A DNA stretch of 64,000 nt. Source: Oligoflexales bacterium (GTDB lineage: Bacteria > Bdellovibrionota_B > Oligoflexia > Oligoflexales > JALZUQ01). The translations under genes and the position numbers were made by a program. A model generated the notes under the pieces. That model did no database searches. It saw only the letters and a list, made by a program, of their open reading frames with translations, and was not told the DNA's origin. Where the stretch lies: contig JALZUQ010000007.1 of NCBI GenBank assembly GCA_023301465.1, forward strand, positions 1 through 64,000, read 5' to 3'. Positions 16,600 through 56,931 of the stretch are shown piece after piece; within the stretch, counting starts at the first letter, position 1, and every line of letters starts with the position of its first letter.

Positions 16600-16730
16600 A
16601 ATAAAGCCGTTGTGGATTTCTTTCAACGAAGTTGTTGTGAGAATTACACAGGCTGAGCTTAAATGAACGTTTGAAGAACAGCCTTGATGTGAAGTATTCA
16701 GGAAATGGTTTATAGTGTGCATAATATTTG

Positions 16731-17582
16731 ATGGATGATTTGATGCTTATTAAGTTCTTGGTTTTTGTTTTTGACGCTCTTCCTTGTAATCTGCTCTCTA
16801 GGCTTTTTGGCTTATGGGCTTCTATAGAGTTTCCTTATCCAGTTCAGGTTTTTTTTAATAAAGCATTTTGTTTTTTTTGTAGAATTGATCTGGCTGATTG
16901 CGGTAAACAACATGGAGATTTTCAAACTGTAAACGCCTTATTTACAAGGCAAGTCAATATGGAAACGCGTGCTGTGCAAGAAGGGTTTCCCAGCCCGTGT
17001 GATGGAAAACAACTGCAATTTTCAGAATCTTATCGAGGCGTAGCAGTACAAGCAAAATCATTAAACTACGATCTAAATACTTTATGTGCCACAAGCAGTG
17101 CTGATTTTGGATGGTACTCAACAATCTATTTATCTCCAAAAGACTATCATAGAGTTCATTGTCCTATTGATGGAGAAATCATTCAAGCAACTCATATTCC
17201 CGGAGATTTATTTCCGGTAAACGATGTTTTCTTGCCATTTAAAGAAGGAATTTTTTCTGAAAACGAACGCGTCGTTTTTCAGATCTTTAATCCCGAGATT
17301 CAAGCGAACCTGTATCTTGTTATGGTTGGGGCGTATAATGTTGGTTCGGTAACATCAAAGTACTTTCCTGAACTAAAAACCAATGTTTCAGGAAAACGCC
17401 GCAGTGTGCTTAAAGCTCCAGCAAGTGCAAAGATTGCTAAAGGTGATGAACTGGCTACATTTCAGCTAGGATCAACGGTAGTTTTGGCATTTGAGAAAGG
17501 GTTTAACTCTATTTATAAAATGACAGAGCTGGAGAGTTCAAGAAGTGTTAAGATGGGTGAGCAGCTTTTAGAGTTAAAATAA
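16731..17582 (+). CDS. psd: Phosphatidylserine decarboxylase proenzyme
   Basis: Psd makes phosphatidylethanolamine and self-cleaves at an LGST/GST site to form its pyruvoyl group. Here the site is FQLGSTVVLAFE (LGST at about residues 245-248). Other family marks are SPKDYHRVHCPIDGEI with the catalytic His, GDLFPVN, VGAYNVGSV and GKRR. The length (about 283) is normal. The ATG at 16731 lacks a clear Shine-Dalgarno; a second ATG at 16743 is possible. Pyruvate-kinase-like and CYTH genes follow closely (24-bp gap, then overlap), so the three probably form an operon. Confidence 0.93.
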   Translation: MDDLMLIKFLVFVFDALPCNLLSRLFGLWASIEFPYPVQVFFNKAFCFFCRIDLADCGKQHGDFQTVNALFTRQVNMETRAVQEGFPSPCDGKQLQFSESYRGVAVQAKSLNYDLNTLCATSSADFGWYSTIYLSPKDYHRVHCPIDGEIIQATHIPGDLFPVNDVFLPFKEGIFSENERVVFQIFNPEIQANLYLVMVGAYNVGSVTSKYFPELKTNVSGKRRSVLKAPASAKIAKGDELATFQLGSTVVLAFEKGFNSIYKMTELESSRSVKMGEQLLELK

Positions 17583-17606: not shown

Positions 17607-19022
17607 TTGAAAAATCTTCAAATAACAAAAATTATTTGGTCGCTGAGTACGGGGCTTCAAGACGCAAAAAAAGTAACGAAAGTAGGCTTAAATAGGTTTG
17701 CAGGTCTAAAGCTTGATTACTCGACTCCAGAAAAATCTATCCAGTTCTTAGATGAGCTCTGTGATCTAAATGAGACACTGCCAGCCGTTGTGTTGGATCT
17801 TGCTCCTGCAACAAGAGCGTTTGTAAAGAGCATTTCCATTGATATTGATGCTATCCAAATTGGTTCTATCTTAAAGCTTGGGACAGGTTCTGATGCGGAT
17901 ATTCAGATTTCTGCAACCGTACCACTATCTGAAATCTATCAAAAAGGAGCACGTGCGTACCTTGGTGCGGGTGGTACTTTTTTAAAGTTAGAAGACTTTA
18001 ATGGAAAAGATACGATGCAAGCTGAGGTGGTCCAGCTGGGAGGGATCAAGATTGGTAGCCCGCTTCATGTTCCCTCTACAAGAGAAGTAGATACCAAAGG
18101 GGATTACCTTGTAGATCTAGCAAAGTATGAAGAGCTTCTCAATCATCACATCACACACGTTATTCTTCCGGGTTTTTTATCACCGGGCGTTTTCAAAAAA
18201 CTTCGCGACCATATTCAAAAAGTAACAGAGCGTCCTATTTGGTTTGTAGCAAAGGTCGCTTCTCAGTCTGATTTTGAGAATCTTCAGAGCATTTTTGAGC
18301 ATATAAGTGGTGTTTATGTGTCAAGGCTAGACTGGGCCATGACTGTTGAACCTGCAAGTATTCCTGTCAAAACAAAAGAGCTTCACCAAAAGTGTGTAAT
18401 GAACGGAAAATTCTTTGTTACTGCTTCTCAAATGTTGCTTTCTATGGCTAGTAATATTACGCCTACAAGAGCTGAGGTGTCGGATATTGCGAATGCGTTA
18501 GTAGATAAGTCTGATGCTATTGTTCTCACAAAAGAAATAGATTCTTTTGAAGCTGTAAGCAGAACATTAGACATGATGGAAAAAATTATTTTTGACGTAG
18601 AGCAAAATTACAAAAAAATGTCTGGTTGGGTTATGCAAGAGCCAACGGTAGATTCACCGTTTTCTGCGGTGGCGTATGGTGCTGTAGAAGCAGCTAGAAA
18701 CGTTGGTGCAAAAGCGATTGTTGCTTTAACTCACTCTGGAAACACCGTCCAAGCTATCTCTACTTTTAATCCTCCAATCCCAGTAATCGCTATTAGCTTT
18801 GATGATTGTTTGTTACGAAGTCTTGCTTTAATTCGTGGTGTCTACGGATTTTGCTTGTCCTCTACTCCGAAGTTAGATGAGGTTTTGAATGTTGTAAATG
18901 CACAGTTAATCAAACAAGGTTTATTAGACAAGGATGATCTTTATGTATTTGCAAGTGTTACTCTTTCAAGCTTAGGTTCTGATGCTAGTAATTTATTTAC
19001 CATCCAAAAGGTGCGTGGATGA
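17607..19022 (+). CDS. Divergent pyruvate-kinase-like protein, probably catalytically altered
   Basis: A 471-residue protein with the pyruvate kinase fold order: N-terminal barrel strand TKIIWSLST, the lid domain, a second barrel half with VTASQMLLSM and TPTRAEVSDIANALVD, and a C-terminal domain with AIVALTHSGNTVQAIS. Several catalytic positions differ from active enzymes: the substrate Arg region (usual ARLNFSHG) reads AGLKLDYST, the usual LDTKGPEIR reads LDLAPATRAF, and the metal-binding Glu after the catalytic Lys (usual AKIE) is missing (VAKVAS, Lys near residue 216). The Asp of the usual RGDLG region appears as RLDW. The start is TTG at 17607 with AAAGGA about 7 nt upstream. It overlaps the CYTH gene by 4 nt. 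Confidence 0.82.
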   Translation: MKNLQITKIIWSLSTGLQDAKKVTKVGLNRFAGLKLDYSTPEKSIQFLDELCDLNETLPAVVLDLAPATRAFVKSISIDIDAIQIGSILKLGTGSDADIQISATVPLSEIYQKGARAYLGAGGTFLKLEDFNGKDTMQAEVVQLGGIKIGSPLHVPSTREVDTKGDYLVDLAKYEELLNHHITHVILPGFLSPGVFKKLRDHIQKVTERPIWFVAKVASQSDFENLQSIFEHISGVYVSRLDWAMTVEPASIPVKTKELHQKCVMNGKFFVTASQMLLSMASNITPTRAEVSDIANALVDKSDAIVLTKEIDSFEAVSRTLDMMEKIIFDVEQNYKKMSGWVMQEPTVDSPFSAVAYGAVEAARNVGAKAIVALTHSGNTVQAISTFNPPIPVIAISFDDCLLRSLALIRGVYGFCLSSTPKLDEVLNVVNAQLIKQGLLDKDDLYVFASVTLSSLGSDASNLFTIQKVRG

Positions 19023-19549
19023 AAGGGTTTGAGTACGAAAAAAAGTACCAACTTCACGACCATCAAGTTCAAGTGTTTGTAGACCGAATTCTTTCATTAG
19101 GGCCAATAAAAACATACAAAACCTCTTCGAGAGACTGTTACTATTATCCCAAAAATTTATCTCATGTTCTTCGCTATAGATATGGCGAAGGAAAAAGTGA
19201 ATTCACTTTTAAGCAAAATGTAGAAGATAGTTTTTCTTTGCGTAAAGAGCTGAATATTGATTTAAAAGATTGCGATCAGAAAGCGGATATTGAAGGCTTT
19301 ATTACTCAACTTTCGTATCTGGTAGGCCCAGAGATTCAGAAGAAAATCGAGGTGTTCGATTTTCCTGATAGCGAGTTATGTATCTATGAGGCGGTTTCAA
19401 AGGCTAAAAAATTAGTATGTTTAGAAATAGAGGCAAAAAACGTTGCAGACCTTACATCAGCTCGGTCTGTGGTTCAAAGTTATGCCGCAGCTCTTTCGCT
19501 TAAAGACTCGGATGAGTTTTTAGTTAATAATTTTGATTATTTTCACTAA
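19019..19549 (+). CDS. CYTH-domain (triphosphate tunnel) protein
   Basis: A 176-residue protein with the N-terminal ExExK signature of the CYTH superfamily (FEYEKKY), followed by alternating charged strands expected of the tunnel fold: LRYRYGEG, FTFKQ, LRKELNI and VCLEIEAK. Family members are class IV adenylate cyclases, thiamine triphosphatases or inorganic triphosphatases; which activity applies cannot be told. Its ATG overlaps the stop of the pyruvate-kinase-like gene (ATGA). It is convergent with the next gene, 1 bp apart, with no terminator between. Confidence 0.8.
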   Translation: MKGFEYEKKYQLHDHQVQVFVDRILSLGPIKTYKTSSRDCYYYPKNLSHVLRYRYGEGKSEFTFKQNVEDSFSLRKELNIDLKDCDQKADIEGFITQLSYLVGPEIQKKIEVFDFPDSELCIYEAVSKAKKLVCLEIEAKNVADLTSARSVVQSYAAALSLKDSDEFLVNNFDYFH

Positions 19550-19550
19550 A

Positions 19551-20399
19551 CTACTTTGATGTCTCTGGGTTTACTGTATAAGAATCGAAGGCCTTTTTTA
19601 TAAGGTTCAGGGCATCTCCTACGGAGACAAGACTCTTTGCAAAAAAGACATTAACAGACTCTCGAATAGTTGTTTTCGTCTGTCTTACTTCATCTGTTTT
19701 TAATATTAGCTTGTTTTTATGGTAATCTTCAAACTTCAAGGCAGCTGTTTTTTGATTGAGCTGTGGTTGCAGTGTTAGTTTTTTTAGAAGATCTTCTCCA
19801 AGCTCTTTGTGGAAAGCCTCAGCTGAAATAGACGCGTCAAGCATGGTGATAATAAAATTCCCGTTTGGAAAGTTATTAATACTGTGTTTTTCGTTGCTTT
19901 CCATCATTTCTATTAATTTTGTAAAGCTTGCATTCGCTTCTTTGGTGAGCCCGTCATTGCTTTCAGCTCTTTTTAAGCTGCCTCGAAACGCCTGAATAAT
20001 ATAATAACTATTAAGTAGCGAACTTCTGGTGGCGTCGAAGTTTTTAATGTCTTGGTCGTTTTTTAACTCAAGGTCTTTGTAATAATCAGTTTCTTTATAT
20101 TCAGTTGAGCTAAGACTTTTATAAACATTCTCGGCATTAGCGTGAAAATCTGAGTCAGAGTTTAGGAGTTTTTCTTGAATGTTTTTTATGTTTTGACCTT
20201 GTTCAAATAATAAAAACTCTTTGCGTGATTTTTGCTCTTCATTGACGGTCTTGTAAAACTTGCCATCTTTGACTTCATAGGTTGCAGTAAAACCGAATGA
20301 ATCTGTTGCGGTGATGTCTTTGAGACTCGCGTTTTCTGTGGACTTACATGCTGTGAAAAAAAATATTATTGAAAATATAAGAACAGAAGTTTTCGTCAT
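19551..20399 (-). CDS. Lipoprotein of unknown function (282 aa)
   Basis: The N terminus MTKTSVLIFSIIFFFTAC is a lipoprotein signal with lipobox FTAC, giving a mature protein of about 264 residues. The mature part is helical and highly charged (many Lys/Glu/Asp), with no recognisable motif. The upstream 133-bp gap separates it from another exported, helical protein on the same strand; the two may be co-transcribed. Confidence 0.72.
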   Translation of the reverse strand: MTKTSVLIFSIIFFFTACKSTENASLKDITATDSFGFTATYEVKDGKFYKTVNEEQKSRKEFLLFEQGQNIKNIQEKLLNSDSDFHANAENVYKSLSSTEYKETDYYKDLELKNDQDIKNFDATRSSLLNSYYIIQAFRGSLKRAESNDGLTKEANASFTKLIEMMESNEKHSINNFPNGNFIITMLDASISAEAFHKELGEDLLKKLTLQPQLNQKTAALKFEDYHKNKLILKTDEVRQTKTTIRESVNVFFAKSLVSVGDALNLIKKAFDSYTVNPETSK

Positions 20400-20532: not shown

Positions 20533-22212
20533 CTACTCAGTAGTTTGTTCTTGTGTGCTTTTTAGAAACTGTTTTAAGCTTGAGATACTTTCGGCATCAG
20601 TGTTCGATGCAGTATTGTCTTGTGTGATGATAATAGTTTGTTTCTCTTCTGTTACAATGGCATAGTATTCGTCTTTTCTTGTTAATTCATGAGTTTTTAG
20701 AATGTCTACGGTTTCACTAAATTTTACGCGAATGTCTTTTAAGTTAATAGATTCTGTTTGAGGCCTTGTGGTGGCTGTTGCAACGCGTACATCTTCACCA
20801 AATGAACTATCAAACTTTATGAGTTTTCCTATGGTAGTTGCTTCAATTGAGCTTTTGGGGATAAGAATAAAAGCATCGTCGCCCCCGACCCAAATAATTG
20901 GTTTTACACCAAACTTCGCTGTGTACTGAAAAATAAGAGCCTTCATTTCTTTGTGTAGTTCTGTGGTAAAATCAATGGAATTTTCTAAAACACGTTTGTG
21001 GAGGTCAATGAACTTTTGATATTTTTCTTTGAGTACTTCTGAATTAATTTCGCCATTTTCTTGTGAGAGCACGTATTGCTTTAGTTCTTTTAAGCTTTGG
21101 TGTATGCCCTCTATGTTGTTGTCGACGTCAACCAGATTTCTGGCACCTAGTCCTTTAATGTCTATGTATACCATGAGTTCTGGGTTTTTCATGGTTGGAA
21201 ACTGATCTCTTGAGGTGGCGGCCGTTTTGCTTATAACTTCAGAAGGAAGTTCTTTTAAAATAGATAGGTACTCGATGTAGGATTGCAACTCATTATGTGC
21301 TTGTTCCAAAGTACTTTGTTTTTTTTGTTTTAGTAATGCTGTGTATTCAGGGGGCCACAAACTTGGGTCTTTCGATCGATTTTGTCTTATGGTTTTAAAT
21401 AGTTGAAGTTTTCTTTCGTTGTTGTCGTTTTTGGAAAAAGCCCAATTATATACAGACTTTTGTAGTTTTTTTGCTGTGCTAAAGTAACTAAAAACTCTGC
21501 TTAAATTCCCAATGTCTTCTCGAATTTCGAAGGGCTCTATTTTCGACATTGCTCGTGCTTCAATGTTTGCAAGTTGTCTGTGAGGTGATACGCCTATTGC
21601 TAGTTGTTTGCGAAGTAAATCTCGAAACTCTTGACCCCCGATTTTTTCGTCTATGAGTAGTCTTATAAAGTCAATTTGAAACTCATCTATAGGGTTTAGT
21701 TTTAAGTTTTTTTCGAAAAAAACAACTTTATTCCCTATTTCATTAAGAAGTTTTGTTCGCTTTTCTGTTTTAGATGTTAAAAAATAATTGGAGATATCTA
21801 GTGCTATTTGTTTTCGCATGGTTTTAAGAAGTTTTATAAATTCTGTTTCGTTGTGCACCTCTAACTTAAGCTCAGTTGTCTTGATGTAGTTAGAAGTAAC
21901 TTCTTTTATTGTGCCAATATCAGGGTTTTCATCTAGGGCTTTTTCAAGCCTCACTTGAAGAAGGCCGTGGTATAGCAAGGTGAGATGTTCTGCATACACT
22001 TGTCCGTCACTCTCACTTTCACCAAAAATTTGATTAAGTGTTTTGAGCGTGTTGTTAGAGCTAGTAATATGAATTTCGTTTGAAGAAAATGGAACGTGTT
22101 TATCATTTAGTAGTACTTCTGTTGTGAGGCATTCATCGGCATGGAGTGTGTTGACTGGGTTGAATATGGAGATTAATAACCACAGAAAAATCATGTATAA
22201 GCGTAAAAACAC
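20533..22212 (-). CDS. Exported helical protein with a C-terminal GGDEF-like domain
   Basis: A 559-residue protein with a signal peptide ending near TLHA-DE and no other membrane segment, so it should be periplasmic or secreted. Residues about 60-340 are helical. The C-terminal half contains YIDIKGLGARNLVDVDNN and, about 90 residues later, WVGGDDAFILIP (near residue 440). This arrangement, a D-x-D strand followed by a GGDD hairpin, mirrors the palm domain of GGDEF nucleotidyl cyclases with GGDEF changed to GGDDA. A long helical insertion separates the motifs. Start GTG at 22212 with GAGGT about 10 nt upstream; ATG 22194 is an alternative. Activity is uncertain because the substrate GTP is not normally available outside the cytoplasm. 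Confidence 0.65.
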   Translation of the reverse strand: MFLRLYMIFLWLLISIFNPVNTLHADECLTTEVLLNDKHVPFSSNEIHITSSNNTLKTLNQIFGESESDGQVYAEHLTLLYHGLLQVRLEKALDENPDIGTIKEVTSNYIKTTELKLEVHNETEFIKLLKTMRKQIALDISNYFLTSKTEKRTKLLNEIGNKVVFFEKNLKLNPIDEFQIDFIRLLIDEKIGGQEFRDLLRKQLAIGVSPHRQLANIEARAMSKIEPFEIREDIGNLSRVFSYFSTAKKLQKSVYNWAFSKNDNNERKLQLFKTIRQNRSKDPSLWPPEYTALLKQKKQSTLEQAHNELQSYIEYLSILKELPSEVISKTAATSRDQFPTMKNPELMVYIDIKGLGARNLVDVDNNIEGIHQSLKELKQYVLSQENGEINSEVLKEKYQKFIDLHKRVLENSIDFTTELHKEMKALIFQYTAKFGVKPIIWVGGDDAFILIPKSSIEATTIGKLIKFDSSFGEDVRVATATTRPQTESINLKDIRVKFSETVDILKTHELTRKDEYYAIVTEEKQTIIITQDNTASNTDAESISSLKQFLKSTQEQTTE

Positions 22213-22330: not shown

Positions 22331-24130
22331 TTAAATGTTTTTTGGTTCACGTTTTTTTGGTGAAAAACAAATAAAACTCAATGGGATGAGAAACCACAGG
22401 AACATCCAAGGATTTTTCTCGTGATTATTTGAAAGACATCCACATGTTGGTGTTACTCGTGTCCCAACCTCTGGGTTGGGTACTGGGCTAATAGAAGGTG
22501 AATTGGTCACAGCGGCTGAAGCGTCTAGTAATCCAGTACCAAGTAGTGGTACCCGTGTAAGTTCTCCTTGGGGTTTGATGAAGTAGTTGAAGTTATCATC
22601 GTAGTCTCGGTACATCGAGGTATTTGTTGTTTGTACTAGGCGGTTTTTTAACTCTTGAGCTGAGATGTTTGGTTCTTGCGATAGGATAAGGCCTGCTACT
22701 CCTGCAACTACCGGAGCAGCCATAGAGGTTCCGTTTCTTTTTATGATTAAAGAGTCGCTGGATGACTCTGTAGAAGGTATTTGATAACCCGGAGCAGCAA
22801 TGTCTACCCATGTTCCAAAATTACTAAATTTAGATTTGACGGTACGGTCTCCAGACGCTTCTTGCACAGAAGATACAGCAACAACTGAGGGTAAACTTGC
22901 TGGGTACGATTGAACGTTAGTATCTTCGTTTCCAGCCGCTGCTATTACCAGAATATTTAAATTATCAAACAGATGTTGAATCAATGCTGTCACAGCTCGT
23001 GACCGGATTGATTTTCCAAGCGACATGTTGATAACTCTAACAAGGCTTGTGTTTGGTTTTGATCTAAAGTTTGAAATGTACTTAAGGCCTGCAATTATTG
23101 CAGAATCAGCAATGGTTTGTTCTCCGTCTGTGGGAACTGCTTTGATAGCTAGTATCTTGCAGACTGGGCAGATCGAAATAGCTCTTTCACCGGAAACATA
23201 GTTGTGATTTCCAGCTGCTATCCCTGCAACATGAGTCCCATGACTGCAACTATTCCTTGAGCCTCCTGATTCACAAAATTTTTTACCTTGAGAGTCTTCA
23301 GATTTAGGAGTGATATCCCCATTTCCAAAGCTATAACGAAAAGCAGCACCAGTGTTACAGCCATTAATATCATTAGCACATCCTGCTTTTCCTATACTTG
23401 CATCGTCATTCTCCCAAATTTGACCAGCTAATCCGTCATGATCTGTTTGAACTCCTGTATCAAGAATAGCAATGACAGGTTCAACAATGATGTCTGCGTT
23501 GCTTAAGTGGTTGAATGCATCGAGTAACTTAATCTCAGAATGGTACCACTGCGGGTTAGAGCCAGTTGCGTTTTGATAGTCTTGTAAGTGTTCAACATAA
23601 GGGTTTTGAAAAGTTTTGTTGATATAGTTTGGCTCAGCAAACCAAATAGCGTCTTCGTTGGACCATTTCTCGAGGGTTTCCCGAGCCTCTTTGCTTGATC
23701 GAAAAATAATATTGGTTAGGATCATTTCGTCTGGTTGTTTGCCTGGTTGACTAGGCTGTGTATACAAAAAATTAGTATTAATAGGGTTTGGATGAACCTT
23801 TTGCTTTGTCATGGGTATACGGCCAAACATTTGGAAGTCACTCATAGCAATTTGATGGTTAAGGGCTGAGGAAAGATAGACAGTATTGTAGCGATTCTCA
23901 TTTTTTGGTGAAAGCCACTTGCCTCTGTAGTCTTCGCCAGCCTTGAAAGCAACAATATACTCATTCGATTGCATGGGAGTATTTAACAACTCGCTCGAAT
24001 GGATGATCGTTCGAGTGATAAAGCTCAAGTCATTTTCTGAGCCACAGCTTTGGAGAAGCTGCAAAGCTAGAACCATGAGAGTTAGAGTGACATTATTTAC
24101 GTTTTTTATAGAAATTTTCATCCTCTTCAT
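22331..24130 (-). CDS. Subtilisin-family (S8) serine protease with C-terminal membrane tail
   Basis: A 599-residue exported protease. The signal ends in LLQSC, a probable lipobox. The S8 triad is complete: Asp in VIAILDTGV (near residue 223), His in HGTHVAGIAAG (near 295) and Ser in GTSMAAPVVAG (near 467); the oxyanion Asn lies in AAAGNED. Residues 40-190 look like a propeptide/inhibitor domain (ending WFAEPNY). The last 37 residues hold a CGC motif, a hydrophobic helix and a basic end (KKREPK), the arrangement of C-terminal sorting signals. A paired lipobox and C-terminal tail is unusual. Start codons ATG 24130 or 24121 are possible. Function: extracellular protein degradation (inferred). 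Confidence 0.93.
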   Translation of the reverse strand: MKRMKISIKNVNNVTLTLMVLALQLLQSCGSENDLSFITRTIIHSSELLNTPMQSNEYIVAFKAGEDYRGKWLSPKNENRYNTVYLSSALNHQIAMSDFQMFGRIPMTKQKVHPNPINTNFLYTQPSQPGKQPDEMILTNIIFRSSKEARETLEKWSNEDAIWFAEPNYINKTFQNPYVEHLQDYQNATGSNPQWYHSEIKLLDAFNHLSNADIIVEPVIAILDTGVQTDHDGLAGQIWENDDASIGKAGCANDINGCNTGAAFRYSFGNGDITPKSEDSQGKKFCESGGSRNSCSHGTHVAGIAAGNHNYVSGERAISICPVCKILAIKAVPTDGEQTIADSAIIAGLKYISNFRSKPNTSLVRVINMSLGKSIRSRAVTALIQHLFDNLNILVIAAAGNEDTNVQSYPASLPSVVAVSSVQEASGDRTVKSKFSNFGTWVDIAAPGYQIPSTESSSDSLIIKRNGTSMAAPVVAGVAGLILSQEPNISAQELKNRLVQTTNTSMYRDYDDNFNYFIKPQGELTRVPLLGTGLLDASAAVTNSPSISPVPNPEVGTRVTPTCGCLSNNHEKNPWMFLWFLIPLSFICFSPKKREPKNI

Positions 24131-24249: not shown

Positions 24250-25986
24250 TTGAAAATAATTTATGTATTAAGCATGTTTTTACTGCCAACCTTGTTGGTG
24301 GCTCAAGACATTCATGCACCCGAAAGCCATGAGGGGTCAATGAATGCTTATGATAATGATCAAAATCAAAAAAACTTTAAAGAGGACCCAATTGTTCTTG
24401 ATGTTGATGAGCTAAATGGTGTTCCTAAAGTATTAAAGCCAAGAAAAGAACAAATAATCAAAGTTGATAACTCGTTGAATTATATATCTGAAAAGGGTGG
24501 ATTTTTGGATTTGACCAAGTACTTGAGCGATGACATTCAAGTATTTGTCCGTGACGAGAGTATTTTAAGCTGGGAAGAGCCTAAACTTATCTCAAATGTT
24601 GCTAATGGTTATACAGAGGCATTTTTAGTTGATAAAGACAAAATGGATATAGTTCGCGTGCAGGTGAACTCAAAGCAAAAAAAAGAAACTACGAATGATC
24701 TTGTTAGCAAGGTTATTGCTTCAAAACCACTGATTCAAAACTATGAAGACCCCCAAAAGCCTATTAGAAGAAGCTCAGGCGTGGGTGAGTCCACAACAGC
24801 AGAGTTGCAAATGATGCAAGTGGTCCCTACTGAACCAGGTAGTCCTAGGCCTTTAGATAGAGTAGCTCTTCAAGTAGTCGGGTTTGAACGTGTTTATCAG
24901 TCTAATGACTTTGGCGTTGTGATTATTGATGATATCCCCGCTAAAGGTGATTTCTTAGTGCGGGTTTCAGATCCTGTCTATCAAAGATTCTTGCCAACAA
25001 CTGTCAGCGTTCATAGTGATACAGAAGTGATAGAGCTTGTTTCTGCTAAAGACATGACTTGGATGCTTTCTGCTAGTGCGTCAACTCTTGATTATAAAAA
25101 TCACGCAAATGTTTGTGGTCAAATCCCAGTTGCTGGAAAAGATAAAGTAGAAGTGGTTTTTAACCAGAAGCCTCTAAAGAGTTTTTATTTTCAAAACTAC
25201 TCCAGTGATAAAGTAGTTTTTAGCCTAAAGGCAAATCATGCTAGTAAGTCGGGTGTATTTTGTGCTTTTGATGTAAAGCCTGGCCCTGTTATGATGGATG
25301 TCATTGTAAATGGAAAGCTTGAGTCTAGTGGGATGCACTTTCTTCATGCTGGAAACAATGAATTTATTAGAATACCAGAAATAAAAACGGAGTTTCATCT
25401 TCAGGCAGGACTTAAGCCATCTGCTGCAATCTATGGCGGGGGTAAAGACCTTGATAGCCAACACCTTTTAAGATTGGAAGACGTAAGTCTTAATGATGTT
25501 GCACTTGATAGTGAGCTTTTTAGAAAACAGTCTTCTGGTGCGTATTATTTTGAAAATCTTTCACCAAAAGGTGACTCGTATATTTATACTAAGGATAATG
25601 TTCTTGAGCCTACAGTCTACAAGGTTAATGGTTTTGATCAGGTTCTGCCAATGGTAAATTTAGGTACTTTTGAATTTCTCATGCATTCGAATGAAATATA
25701 TTGTGATTCAGATCAAGGTTCTATTTATGCTGAATATATAGATCAATCAAGAGGTGGCCCGTATCAGGTAGAAATACTGAACTCTAAAGGTGAGCTAATT
25801 ACAAAAGACACTATGAATATTCCGGGCAAAGTCTCTTCAAAATCATTTACTTGTAACCTACCTGTAGATCTTTACAGTGTTCATGTAAGGGATGTAGAAG
25901 GTAATTGGCTTGCTTCTGAAACCCTCCAAGTATTTGAGGCTTCAACCAGTGTTGTAGCAATGGGTTCTGGATATAAGTTTCGTTAA
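24250..25986 (+). CDS. Secreted beta-rich protein of unknown function (578 aa)
   Basis: The start is TTG at 24250 with TAGGAG about 6 nt upstream, giving MKIIYVLSMFLLPTLLVAQ, a signal peptide cleaved after VAQ or nearby. The mature 560 residues are rich in beta-forming stretches and contain several Asp/Gly loops, consistent with repeated beta-sandwich domains, for example the segment around RVALQVVGFERVYQSNDFGVV. Four or five Cys are scattered late in the chain. I recognise no family. Its 3' end overlaps the convergent rarD gene by 4 bp. Confidence 0.7.
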   Translation: MKIIYVLSMFLLPTLLVAQDIHAPESHEGSMNAYDNDQNQKNFKEDPIVLDVDELNGVPKVLKPRKEQIIKVDNSLNYISEKGGFLDLTKYLSDDIQVFVRDESILSWEEPKLISNVANGYTEAFLVDKDKMDIVRVQVNSKQKKETTNDLVSKVIASKPLIQNYEDPQKPIRRSSGVGESTTAELQMMQVVPTEPGSPRPLDRVALQVVGFERVYQSNDFGVVIIDDIPAKGDFLVRVSDPVYQRFLPTTVSVHSDTEVIELVSAKDMTWMLSASASTLDYKNHANVCGQIPVAGKDKVEVVFNQKPLKSFYFQNYSSDKVVFSLKANHASKSGVFCAFDVKPGPVMMDVIVNGKLESSGMHFLHAGNNEFIRIPEIKTEFHLQAGLKPSAAIYGGGKDLDSQHLLRLEDVSLNDVALDSELFRKQSSGAYYFENLSPKGDSYIYTKDNVLEPTVYKVNGFDQVLPMVNLGTFEFLMHSNEIYCDSDQGSIYAEYIDQSRGGPYQVEILNSKGELITKDTMNIPGKVSSKSFTCNLPVDLYSVHVRDVEGNWLASETLQVFEASTSVVAMGSGYKFR

Positions 25987-44573: not shown

Positions 44574-46520
44574 TTACTCTGGGTAAAACAAAGGTTTCCC
44601 AAGGTGCTTGCCATTCCATAATGGGAATTGTGTGTTCTTTTGGTCTAGGGCGTATGTAATGGTGGGAGCTAAAGTTTTTTTGGCTTTTAAGAGACCGTCT
44701 CTGTTTTTGTATCGTAATAAATACACACCAAAATAATCACCGCCATGATTTGAAAGTAAGTTTGCATCTTTTAAAGATATCTCATGTACCCATGGCAAAT
44801 GAAGGTCCTTGGAAGCCTTGATGATAAAGGGTTTGTGGGCTTCTTGATAGCGGTGAGCTGCAAAGAGCCATTTAGAGTTGAGAGGATTGCCCCAGAAATT
44901 TTTAAAAGCTGTATGTAGCTTTTCAGTAAATTGATCAAATGACATATCATGTGGAGCAATAATAATTCTTGGGTTCATGCAGCCAGCTTGGCCTAGGTGA
45001 AAGACCTCTTCGCACAGCATATTAATTTTGCTCATATCCCCAGAGAATTCATATGCAGTTTGATGATGCCCCCAGAACACCCCTGAATTTTTTGAGGTTA
45101 ACTGATTTGCGTTTTGGGTATTGCCAAAAAACACAATTGGAATATCTATATTATTTTGAATGTAATAATTTTTTGGAATAGAAGAAACCTTGAGGCCGAT
45201 CTCTTTTAATGCGTGAACCATAAAATTGAGTAACGGCAGAGATGTGTCATTAGGTGTTTTTAGATGTATGTGTATATCTAGGCAATAAGCAATAAACAAG
45301 TGCTGCATGGTGGCGATAGAGTGGTTGCTGGGTGCAAGTAAAGCCCAAGCACCTTGGTATGTCGGATTTTTTTGGGAGGTAAAAGTAGCGTTTTCGCAAG
45401 CTTTGATCCAGTATTCTTGATCTTTAGGGATTGAATAAGTTAATAGCGACTCCAAAAATAAAACGGAGGCATTTAGAGAGCCAGTTTCTAGAGCAAAAAG
45501 TTCAGTTAGGTTTTGTAGGCGATTTTTCAAGAGCTCTAATATTTTAAGAGAGCGTTCTTTTATTTGTTGTTGGTTTATTTTTTTTGTAGTGGGTTTTTGT
45601 TTCGGGTAAGCTTTTCTTATATTTGTGTGTTTGTTCTTTAAAGAGCAACCTCTAGGTTGAGTGCCGTTAACTCTTCCTTTGATCTGAAATTGGTTGTTTT
45701 TAAGAAGTACCATGTCTTCTGTCTTAATAGCGTATGGATAGTCAGTTCTTTTTTTGTCCCAGACAACTAACCGGCCTAAACCCTCTTTTTTTAGTTCGTT
45801 GCTGCAATCATCTATAAACACATCGACATCTTCTTCAAAGGCGTAATGCTCACCAAAGACTTTATAAGCTTGCCGGCTTAATTCACAGCTTCCATATTCA
45901 CTCAATATTTTTTGGGGAGCGAAGTTTTTTGCGAGCATTTCATAGTATTCATGTAGATTTAAAAACGGTCGAGATTTTATGCCGCCTGTTTCAAATAAAA
46001 AAGCATTCTTTGGTATTCGGCTTCCATTTTCAATGAATTGTAAAATTTGCTCCCCTGTCGCAAAAATCCAAATAGGAGTTTTTGAGGAGGGGTTGCTTGG
46101 GATTGAAAATTTTTGATGGTCGACATATTGAATATTCGAGAGTTCCGAAAACCAATGAATCATTTGTGCCAATGAAGAGTCTTTCCAAACCTCAGTGGAT
46201 GGAATAAAACTGTATCCGTTGATTTTAGAGAATGTTTGATGAAGCTTTTTTTTGATGACTGCTTCAAAGTCGGTGGTAGATTTTCTTTGGTACTGTTTGA
46301 GGGACTCTTCAGAGTAAAATACCTCAGAGCGGTGTTCTGAGGTAGATCCAGATGACTTAAAAACAGACAGATTATCTCTCGTGCCTTGATAGATAAGGCT
46401 TTTGTAGGTCTTAAAGTAGCTTACAGGAATAACAGGTACCACTAGATTTTGACAACCCATGACTTGGATAAGCTGATCAATATCAGGTACTTGCCTATGA
46501 TTTGGTCCTTGTTGTGACAT
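44574..46520 (-). CDS. LuxE-LuxC fusion: acyl-protein synthetase joined to acyl-CoA reductase
   Basis: A 648-residue two-domain protein. The first half resembles LuxE acyl-protein synthetase: FKSSGSTSEHRSEVFYSEES (nucleotide loop, about residues 54-73), LFETGGIKSR and ILSEYGSCELSRQAY. A Lys-rich linker follows near residue 300-320. The second half resembles LuxC acyl reductase: GAWALLAPSNHSIATMQ and the nucleophile-Cys block CEEVFHLGQAGCMNPRIII (Cys near residue 511). In bioluminescent operons LuxE activates and LuxC reduces fatty acid to aldehyde; here both lie on one chain and no luciferase genes are near. The ATG at 46520 is preferred over the TTG at 46544. Product aldehyde use is unknown. 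Confidence 0.82.
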   Translation of the reverse strand: MSQQGPNHRQVPDIDQLIQVMGCQNLVVPVIPVSYFKTYKSLIYQGTRDNLSVFKSSGSTSEHRSEVFYSEESLKQYQRKSTTDFEAVIKKKLHQTFSKINGYSFIPSTEVWKDSSLAQMIHWFSELSNIQYVDHQKFSIPSNPSSKTPIWIFATGEQILQFIENGSRIPKNAFLFETGGIKSRPFLNLHEYYEMLAKNFAPQKILSEYGSCELSRQAYKVFGEHYAFEEDVDVFIDDCSNELKKEGLGRLVVWDKKRTDYPYAIKTEDMVLLKNNQFQIKGRVNGTQPRGCSLKNKHTNIRKAYPKQKPTTKKINQQQIKERSLKILELLKNRLQNLTELFALETGSLNASVLFLESLLTYSIPKDQEYWIKACENATFTSQKNPTYQGAWALLAPSNHSIATMQHLFIAYCLDIHIHLKTPNDTSLPLLNFMVHALKEIGLKVSSIPKNYYIQNNIDIPIVFFGNTQNANQLTSKNSGVFWGHHQTAYEFSGDMSKINMLCEEVFHLGQAGCMNPRIIIAPHDMSFDQFTEKLHTAFKNFWGNPLNSKWLFAAHRYQEAHKPFIIKASKDLHLPWVHEISLKDANLLSNHGGDYFGVYLLRYKNRDGLLKAKKTLAPTITYALDQKNTQFPLWNGKHLGKPLFYPE

Positions 46521-46578
46521 TGCAATTGCCCCATCTACGTGCAAAGGCTACGATGTTCCAGTGTTTAACCTGCAATGA

Positions 46579-54889: not shown

Positions 54890-55810
54890 CTAGCTACAAC
54901 TAGAACCACCAAGGACACAAAACTGTGAACAAAATCGGTGGTTTAGCGATATCGGTTTTAATGAATCTTTCAGGTTGCTGCGGCTAATAAACTCTTCGTC
55001 ATAAGGAAGTAGCGTGCAAGCTGCCACAGACATTTTATTCGTGGATTTTTCTTTCATCACCATTCTACTAGATGAACACATAATATCTTGAGGTTTTTTG
55101 TTGAGGATTCCCCAACACTCGGTAGTTATTTCTGGTGTGTCTGCATTCGGTTTCATCTCAGCAAAGATAACAAATTTTTCTTTAGAATGTTCAGATTCGA
55201 TGCCTTCGTGTCTAAGAGCTTTACGGTAATTGTCTATCATGGTCTCGTCAGATTCTTTCGTCAGAGACCTACCGGCAATACTCCAAGAGATATTTTGTTC
55301 GTCAAGCCACTTAATGCCTTTCATGGCTATTTTCCATGCTTGAGGGCCACGTTCTTGGTTGTGTATTTCTTCTGTGTGGTGATCCAGTGAAATTCTGAAT
55401 TTAAGTTTGTCGCCGTATAGGTTGTGTAGATTTAGAATAGATTCTCTTCTTCTCATCATTGGGTGCATAGCGTTTGTGAGCACTAAGCATTCATAACCGT
55501 GTGATAAACTAAGCTCTAATACTTCAGAAAAGTGCGGATTCATATATGGCTCGCCACCCGTAAAACCGATAATTGGTTTTGTGGCTTGATCCACTGACAT
55601 TTCACTTAGTTCTTCAATATAACTTTGAACGTCATCTTTTGTGATGTAGAGCAAACGGTCGTTTTTTGGAGAAGACTCGATATAACAGTTTTTGCACTGA
55701 AGGTTACACTGCGTGCCAGTATTAAACCACAAAGTATCAAACTCTTGAAAGCCAATATGGGCACGTTTTTTTTGATTAGCAGTGATGAGGGGGTTAGAGA
55801 ATTTTTCCAT
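54890..55810 (-). CDS. Radical SAM protein paired with an ArsM-like methyltransferase
   Basis: A 306-residue radical SAM enzyme: CX3CX2C cluster motif at residues 35-42 (CNLQCKNC) in LWFNTGTQCNLQCKNCYIES, GFTGGEPYMNP for SAM binding, and FRISLDHH in the barrel. The C terminus is Cys-rich (FCSQFCVLGGSSCS). It is not the classic ArsS sequence, but ArsM-linked radical SAMs are known from arsenosugar loci, so an arsenic-related role is inferred. ATG 55810 overlaps the arsM stop as TAATG. Confidence 0.82.
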   Translation of the reverse strand: MEKFSNPLITANQKKRAHIGFQEFDTLWFNTGTQCNLQCKNCYIESSPKNDRLLYITKDDVQSYIEELSEMSVDQATKPIIGFTGGEPYMNPHFSEVLELSLSHGYECLVLTNAMHPMMRRRESILNLHNLYGDKLKFRISLDHHTEEIHNQERGPQAWKIAMKGIKWLDEQNISWSIAGRSLTKESDETMIDNYRKALRHEGIESEHSKEKFVIFAEMKPNADTPEITTECWGILNKKPQDIMCSSSRMVMKEKSTNKMSVAACTLLPYDEEFISRSNLKDSLKPISLNHRFCSQFCVLGGSSCS

Positions 55811-56913
55811 TAACAACAGCCGCCAGCAGCAGTATCAGTATTGGTGTCATTATTAGTGCTATTGTTTTTAGCGGTGGAATCAATATTTGAGTAAGGAATG
55901 TTCATGCCGCAATCTTTATAGATTCCGTAGTGTGTGGAGAAGTCTCCATAAAAGTTAAAGTACTTTTTAAATCTTGTTTTGTGAATCATGTTGTAAGAGT
56001 TTCCACAAACAGACTCAATTTTTCCTTTTTGAAAAACATGGTGCCCATCAAGCATAAATGCATTCGGTGCTTCGTCCATCCCGCCTTTGTACTCAATGGC
56101 TTGGCCGTACTCTTCACAGTGTGGTTCTAACTCGGAGATTTTAAACAGTCTGTAGACAACAGAATAAAATTCAAAGCCTGCAAGCATTTGCTGAAGTCTC
56201 GGGTTTTCAATGGTGATTGGTTTTGACTCTACGATGCGAGGGTCAGAAAAACCGACTTTTTTAGAAAGGTTTTCAAAATCATTCCAATACATCGCACCAC
56301 TTAAACACTCACCATAGAGTTCTTTGTCGTTAACGAGTTCTTGTGGGATGCGTCTGTTACAGTACACATCAGAAAAGTATAATTCGCCGCCTTCTCTGAG
56401 TAAGCGGTGCGTGTTTGCTAGCACAGACTCTTTGTTTGGAATCAGGTTGATCACACAGTTAGAAACAACCGCGTCATAAGATCCATCTTTTAAGCCCAAC
56501 TCATCTAGCTTTTCAAGATCACCTTTTAAAAACTCAACGTTTGGTTTTTTGTAGCCAAATTTTTCTGTGTGGTACGAGATATTACGGTTGGCAACTTCTA
56601 GCTGAGCATCTGTCATATCAACGCCTGTTACTTTGCCGTTTTCTCCAACAAGTTTTGAAAGTAAAAAGCAGTCTCTACCTGCACCAGAACCAAGGTCCAA
56701 AACACTAAGCCCATTTAATTCAGTGGGAATCGTCAGCCCGCAACCGTAATATTTAGAGACCACTTCATCAGAAATTTCTGATAAAGCAGTTTTTATGTGG
56801 TTTGGCATAGAGTAAGGATCGCAACAAGCATTGGTTTGGAGATCAGAGCTCGTTTTGAGGGTTTCCCCGTAGTACTCTTTGACGCCTTCTTTAATTTCGT
56901 TTTGATCTAACAT
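55810..56913 (-). CDS. arsM: ArsM-like As(III) S-adenosylmethionine methyltransferase
   Basis: A 367-residue class I methyltransferase: SAM motif LDLGSGAGRD (residues 72-81), VDMTDAQLEVA and SNCVINLIP. Cysteines at about 30/31, 58, 153 and 202 match the four positions of ArsM (Cys pair near the N terminus, YYGCG, SNCV, GECLSGA), and the tail ends GGCC. ArsM methylates arsenite. ATG 56913 with AAAGGA about 7 nt upstream is preferred to ATG 56931. It follows aspS directly and is coupled to the radical SAM gene. Confidence 0.87.
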   Translation of the reverse strand: MLDQNEIKEGVKEYYGETLKTSSDLQTNACCDPYSMPNHIKTALSEISDEVVSKYYGCGLTIPTELNGLSVLDLGSGAGRDCFLLSKLVGENGKVTGVDMTDAQLEVANRNISYHTEKFGYKKPNVEFLKGDLEKLDELGLKDGSYDAVVSNCVINLIPNKESVLANTHRLLREGGELYFSDVYCNRRIPQELVNDKELYGECLSGAMYWNDFENLSKKVGFSDPRIVESKPITIENPRLQQMLAGFEFYSVVYRLFKISELEPHCEEYGQAIEYKGGMDEAPNAFMLDGHHVFQKGKIESVCGNSYNMIHKTRFKKYFNFYGDFSTHYGIYKDCGMNIPYSNIDSTAKNNSTNNDTNTDTAAGGCC

Positions 56914-56931
56914 GACTGATCCTTTATTCAT

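Follow-up and report, generated by a model that had tools for sequence, protein, structure and literature searches.

Does the window, a stretch of 64,000 nucleotides from an Oligoflexales bacterium, encode a palm domain of the nucleotide-cyclase type that is sent out of the cytoplasm? GGDEF and Cas10-clade palms are known as nucleotide enzymes working in the cytoplasm, and an exported one would mean either that the fold has been put to another use or that nucleotide chemistry takes place outside the cytoplasm. The question is raised by the open reading frame at 20533-22212 on the minus strand, which starts with GTG, is open from end to end and encodes 559 aa. Our results point to a real, rare and probably exported orphan with a palm-like signature. 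Its novelty as a palm variant depends on the palm reading holding; if the fold is unrelated, the protein is another rare exported orphan of Oligoflexales.

Distribution of the gene and export of its product

Judged by its homology with a relative of the same length (559 aa), the frame is a genuine gene. This single relative, found in a genome of the same order (Oligoflexales, here G009), matches residues 43-515 with 25% identity at E 2.6e-20, and the full alignment of the two proteins contains 125 identities in 517 aligned columns (24% identity); residues 28-300 taken separately show 60 identities in 245 aligned columns. A scan of a genome contig collection returned the same gene as the G009 relative, in contig JANQHA010000480.1. 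The gene is present as one copy in its own genome and in 2 of the 58 genomes of the phylum, the window's own counted, and the same two genomes stand out among 383 wider relatives. Nothing matched in the only other genome of the family, which is 92% complete. The phyla of three further genomes, guessed from SecA similarity, were also searched (77, 2 and 1 genomes), as were viral contigs, plasmids, phages and genome contigs. Beyond the one relative, no family member was found in the 58 phylum genomes, the 383 wider relatives, the three further phyla, the genome contigs or the viral, plasmid and phage sequences.

Several weak matches were obtained. The 383 wider relatives gave three at E 0.002-0.004, and a second search of the wider relatives gave one at E 0.0009 in G111, a match that the first search had also returned and that contains 5 internal stops; chance would produce about this number in so many genomes. 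The phylum search gave five at E 0.003-0.2. Two of the weak matches (L008 and L010) were looked at, and the former falls in or beside a Peptidase_M28 gene; the remainder were assumed to be due to chance. The favoured reading takes the protein to be lineage-restricted.

The N-terminus of the protein, MFLRLYMIFLWLLISIFNPVNTLHA followed by DE, resembles a Sec signal peptide by eye and by hydropathy. Residues 1-25 (22138..22212, minus strand) contain R4, then a hydrophobic core, and then LHA before DE, where cleavage would be expected. The earlier note had described a signal peptide and no transmembrane helix. The mean Kyte-Doolittle value in 19-residue windows is 1.81 at the N-terminus and at most 1.13 in all windows starting past residue 30, so that nothing further along is as hydrophobic. 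No lipobox was seen by eye in the 559-aa protein, whose sole Cys is Cys28. The relative also opens with a signal-like segment. The location outside the cytoplasm that the note had proposed is likely, as far as the two sequences indicate. The note had also supposed that an uncleaved anchor would leave the domain in the cytoplasm; this argument is flawed, because an uncleaved N-in signal anchor still puts the C-terminal domain outside.

Genomic surroundings

The gene lies between a subtilase gene (22331-24130, minus strand; PF00082 at E 7.1e-41) and a gene at 19551-20399 (minus strand) whose product is lipoprotein-like by eye and gave no match in the family search. All three are on the minus strand, separated by gaps of 118 and 133 bases. 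A site scan counted 13 promoter-like sites against 13.1 in shuffles, and 2 terminator-like sites against 3.5. The subtilase itself has a lipobox-like start and a C-terminal tail made of Cys-x-Cys, a hydrophobic segment and a basic end, which we take to resemble C-terminal sorting tails; no sorting-tail model appeared among its family matches.

Gene order was compared in eight stretches around relatives of the pyruvate-kinase-like gene at 17607-19022, taken from 8 of the order's 43 genomes. This gene (plus strand) occurs in 41 of the 43, and its product resembles pyruvate kinase but has diverged (TIGR01064 at E 2.4e-47, with 161.6 bits where the cut-off is 306.4). A relative of 16728-17582 adjoins it in seven of the eight stretches, and a relative of 24250-25986 comes next in six. 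The latter gene (plus strand) encodes a signal-bearing protein of 578 aa, a conserved unknown of the order whose best Pfam match is at E 0.027. Neither the query gene nor the lipoprotein-like gene was found in any of the eight stretches (ORFs of at least 110 aa, E 1e-4), and a relative of the subtilase occurs in one (L029, genome G030). The G009 stretch stops early at a contig end. In that genome the relative of the query sits elsewhere, flanked on one side by an RF-1-domain gene and a DNA polymerase I gene and on the opposite side by a Peptidase_M14 gene. Taken from these eight regions, the query gene looks like an accessory gain within an otherwise conserved stretch.

Between the G009 relatives of 17607-19022 and 19019-19549 there is a frame of 344 aa (L026:3061-4092) that opens with a signal-like segment and carries a GDD close to its end; it matched neither the query gene nor any Pfam family. 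In the window, no cas families were detected in nine other proteins scanned, including the four nearest the gene. Further along, at 54890-56931 (minus strand), an arsenite-methyltransferase-like gene (NF008823 at E 1.4e-55, below cut-off) adjoins a radical SAM gene, which also shows likeness to the arsenosugar biosynthesis protein ArsS (TIGR04167 at E 2.3e-15, below cut-off). The gene at 44574-46544 (minus strand) encodes a 656-aa protein with no NCBIfam match at E 0.001, which by eye resembles a fusion of an acyl-protein synthetase with part of an acyl-CoA reductase.

Motifs compared with GGDEF and Cas10 palms

The two motifs on which the earlier note based its reading, YIDIKG and GGDDAF, are both present in the protein, and no GGDD other than that of the second occurs in open frames of 150 aa or more in the window. 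They lie in a candidate palm-like region (residues 341-520, 20653..21192, minus strand), whose motifs are conserved in the relative and whose fold is putative. The putative strand-1 motif, D351-I-K-G-L-G-A (residues 351-357, 21142..21162, minus strand), shares its D and GLGA (354-357) with the relative. The putative hairpin, PIIWVGGDDAFILIP (residues 438-452, 20857..20901, minus strand), scores like Cas10, and its G444-D445-D446 is conserved. Both proteins keep D-[IV]-x-GLGA and then, some 90 residues later, a GDD-x-F hairpin; the distance from the strand-1 Asp to the hairpin motif is 92 residues in the query and 89 in the relative. The D-x-D that the note had described is not there: the query has D-I-K-G and the relative D-V-M-G at this place, and a D-V-D a few residues downstream (LVDVDNN) is not conserved in the relative. 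In the C-terminal alignment (A4), no Asp upstream of the GDD is conserved except D351. Identical runs of at least three residues occur four times in the whole alignment (GLGA, GDD, VNT and LPS), but shuffling the alignment is expected to yield at least one run of four identities in 0.75 of cases.

The GGDEF family (PF00990) was considered as a home for the protein and rejected, with no Pfam or NCBIfam match and with profile-profile and HMM comparisons no better than shuffles. No family of Pfam or NCBIfam matched the query at E up to 10. A scan of its own genome found five PF00990 domains above the cut-off and no match at the query gene at E up to 10. Aligned by hhalign with these five cyclases, the query obtained a probability of 0.3%, and 21 of 100 full shuffles scored as well. 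With filters off and E up to 1000, the GGDEF HMM gave no match in the query; its match in the relative covers residues 258-291, outside the motif. When only the half-domain from the motif onward was considered, the query scored 2.5 bits, a value equalled or exceeded by 44 of 500 motif-keeping shuffles; for the relative the score was -1.2 bits, equalled or exceeded by 469 of 500. The resemblance consists of GGDD, which is similar to GG[DE]EF, of an Asp that ends the putative first strand of the query, and of N359, at the place of the GGDEF Asn, where the relative has Ala. The differences are as follows: D-x-[DN]-x-F-K-x-x-N, kept in all five cyclases of the genome, reads D-I-K-G-L-G-A-R-N in the query and D-V-M-G-L-G-A-H-A in the relative, so that F-K is replaced in both; the hairpin is GGDDAF in the query and LGDDSF in the relative, with one extra residue before the Phe; and the spacing of 92 and 89 residues compares with 41-43 in the five domains. 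The earlier note was right in its view that the protein does not look like an ordinary diguanylate cyclase.

For comparison with Cas10/Csm1, itself chosen after the sequence had been seen, we used nine plasmid-borne palms of type III-A CRISPR, two of them annotated as hypothetical proteins beside csm2. These examples were fetched by a typed consensus containing the motifs, so that motif counts among them are not independent. They have the strand-1 pattern D-[VAI]-x-x-[LM]-G and the GDD-x-F hairpin as in the query, with one residue between the acids and the Phe (GGDD-x-F) in 8 of the 9, and their spacing of 54-107 residues spans the 92 and 89 of our two proteins. However, D-x-D ends strand 1 in all nine, against D-x-K in the query and D-x-M in the relative, and the query, which lacks this second acid, has a signal-like N-terminus and no similarity to them outside the hairpin. 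The C-terminal alignment scored 35.6 against the nine palms in hhalign, a value reached by none of 100 full column shuffles, by 1 of 100 that kept GGDDAF, by 26 of 100 that kept the 15-residue hairpin and by 36 of 100 that kept DIKGLGA too. Given that hairpin-keeping shuffles score as well, the Cas10 signal is confined to these 15 residues. A forced global alignment places D351 on the Cas10 strand-1 Asp. The plain Cas10 HMM gave 1.9 bits for the query (as good in 32 of 500 full and 140 of 500 motif-keeping shuffles) and -0.8 bits for the relative (82 and 106 of 500). A conserved D-[VAIL]-x-x-[LM]-G at a suitable distance arose in 3 of 20,000 column shuffles, and a conserved Asp that closes a hydrophobic stretch in 2262 of 20,000; both patterns were picked after seeing the sequences, so these odds are a description and not a test. 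PADLOC gave no match to the protein. By sequence, Cas10/Csm1 palms are a somewhat better fit than GGDEF for the motifs and for the distance between them.

The earlier note had called for structure prediction and comparison with GGDEF and Cas10 palms. This was run with a two-sequence input, and the AlphaFold models, one of the entire protein and one of residues 300-559, reached a mean pLDDT of 34 and 41 respectively, too poor for a usable comparison; the helical insertion that the note had proposed has only these unreliable models as its basis. The model of residues 300-559 (pLDDT 41) has a strand at 345-352, two long helices, a strand at 440-444, the GDD turn, a strand at 447-453 and a helix. 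In palms, an Asp ends strand 1 and the hairpin of strands 2 and 3 carries two acids after a small residue, and acids at these two places are common to palm enzymes (PMC2904730). The order of elements in the model agrees with this anatomy, which is only a hint: the palm residues are present in the query and conserved in the relative, and their strands come from a model of mean pLDDT 41. Foldseek gave no significant match with the low-confidence model; among its rows are DNA polymerases and, at rank 6 with E 0.98, the cyclase DgcZ, but with such a model these rows are uninformative. VIA-align rows were mostly helical bundles, and the lack of GGDEF or Cas10 among the 50 rows shown is, with such a model, no evidence against a palm. 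The best match was at E 0.043 in PHROGs, of unknown function, and at E 0.16 among PDB sequences.

Competing readings and known systems

Tentatively, and with somewhat less than even confidence, we favour a Sec-exported protein, not a diguanylate cyclase, whose palm-like domain has diverged far and may bind a metal and a phosphate ligand. The signal peptide would lead to Sec export. It would be followed by an N-terminal region of about 270 residues (residues 28-300, 21313..22131, minus strand), probably helical according to the model of mean pLDDT 34, and by a C-terminal palm (RRM-fold) domain, whose motifs would lie nearer those of Cas10 than those of GGDEF. A divalent metal would be held by D351, which would end strand 1, together with the hairpin acids D445/D446. 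Through this metal the protein would bind, outside the cytoplasm, a ligand that bears phosphate or is otherwise anionic, and the N-terminal region may couple ligand binding to a partner. Synthesis of c-di-GMP is unlikely: GGDEF domains have a second acid on strand 1 and an F-K that are replaced here, their Asn is matched by N359 in the query but by Ala in the relative, and no GTP is expected outside the cytoplasm. As for the repurposed palm-like fold that the earlier note had suggested, the conserved D351 and GDD and the Cas10-like spacing speak for it, and the lack of a family match and of a usable fold against it.

It is nearly as likely that an exported orphan of unrelated fold conserves D351, GLGA and GDD for other structural reasons, and that its likeness to GGDEF and Cas10 is due to chance. 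Nothing similar to Cas10 extends past the 15-residue hairpin, the GGDEF and Cas10 HMM scores are inside the shuffle range, Pfam and NCBIfam gave no match, and the best Pfam hit of the C-terminal piece alone, a helical family at E 0.056, is also below cut-off. Chance does not readily account for both conserved motifs sitting where a palm needs them with a Cas10-like spacing, or for a hairpin that beats bare GGDDAF in shuffled surroundings (1/100). Another reading is an exported palm enzyme with catalytic activity, which would synthesize or modify nucleotides either extracellularly or inside another, NTP-containing cell to which it is delivered. Both proteins keep the acidic residues that palm enzymes share according to PMC2904730, one closing strand 1 and two within the hairpin, and the N-terminus is signal-like. 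However, neither protein has the second strand-1 acid found in Cas10 and GGDEF, the neighbours scanned included nothing recognized as a secretion system or delivery module, and NTPs are not expected in the periplasm, all of which makes such an enzyme unlikely. Slightly less probable again is a Cas10-clade palm relocated outside the cytoplasm, as a metal-dependent nucleotide sensor or nucleotidyltransferase, or one delivered into another cell. Least credible of all is a cytoplasmic palm or cyclase-like protein, its hydrophobic start misread or its true start further in: the case for export does come from hydropathy and inspection, but the diverged relative has its own signal-like start, and an N-in anchor would still place the remainder outside.

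In the open-access literature searched (including PMC4243431, PMC10225642 and PMC12943098), no description of an exported GGDEF or palm domain was found. A palm outside a CRISPR complex is known from mCpol/OptS, the minimal CRISPR polymerase of Panoptes, which is reported to have an acid-bearing hairpin and to belong to a defence operon making cyclic dinucleotides (PMC12657218). Going by that description, and not by sequence, the present protein is alike in having a candidate palm domain with an acid-bearing hairpin; it differs in bearing a signal, and no such defence partner was noticed among the neighbours scanned. The D-I-x-G after putative strand 1 of the query may resemble the motif of class III nucleotide cyclases. 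These cyclases have a single hairpin acid (PMC2904730), whereas the hairpin of the query carries two.
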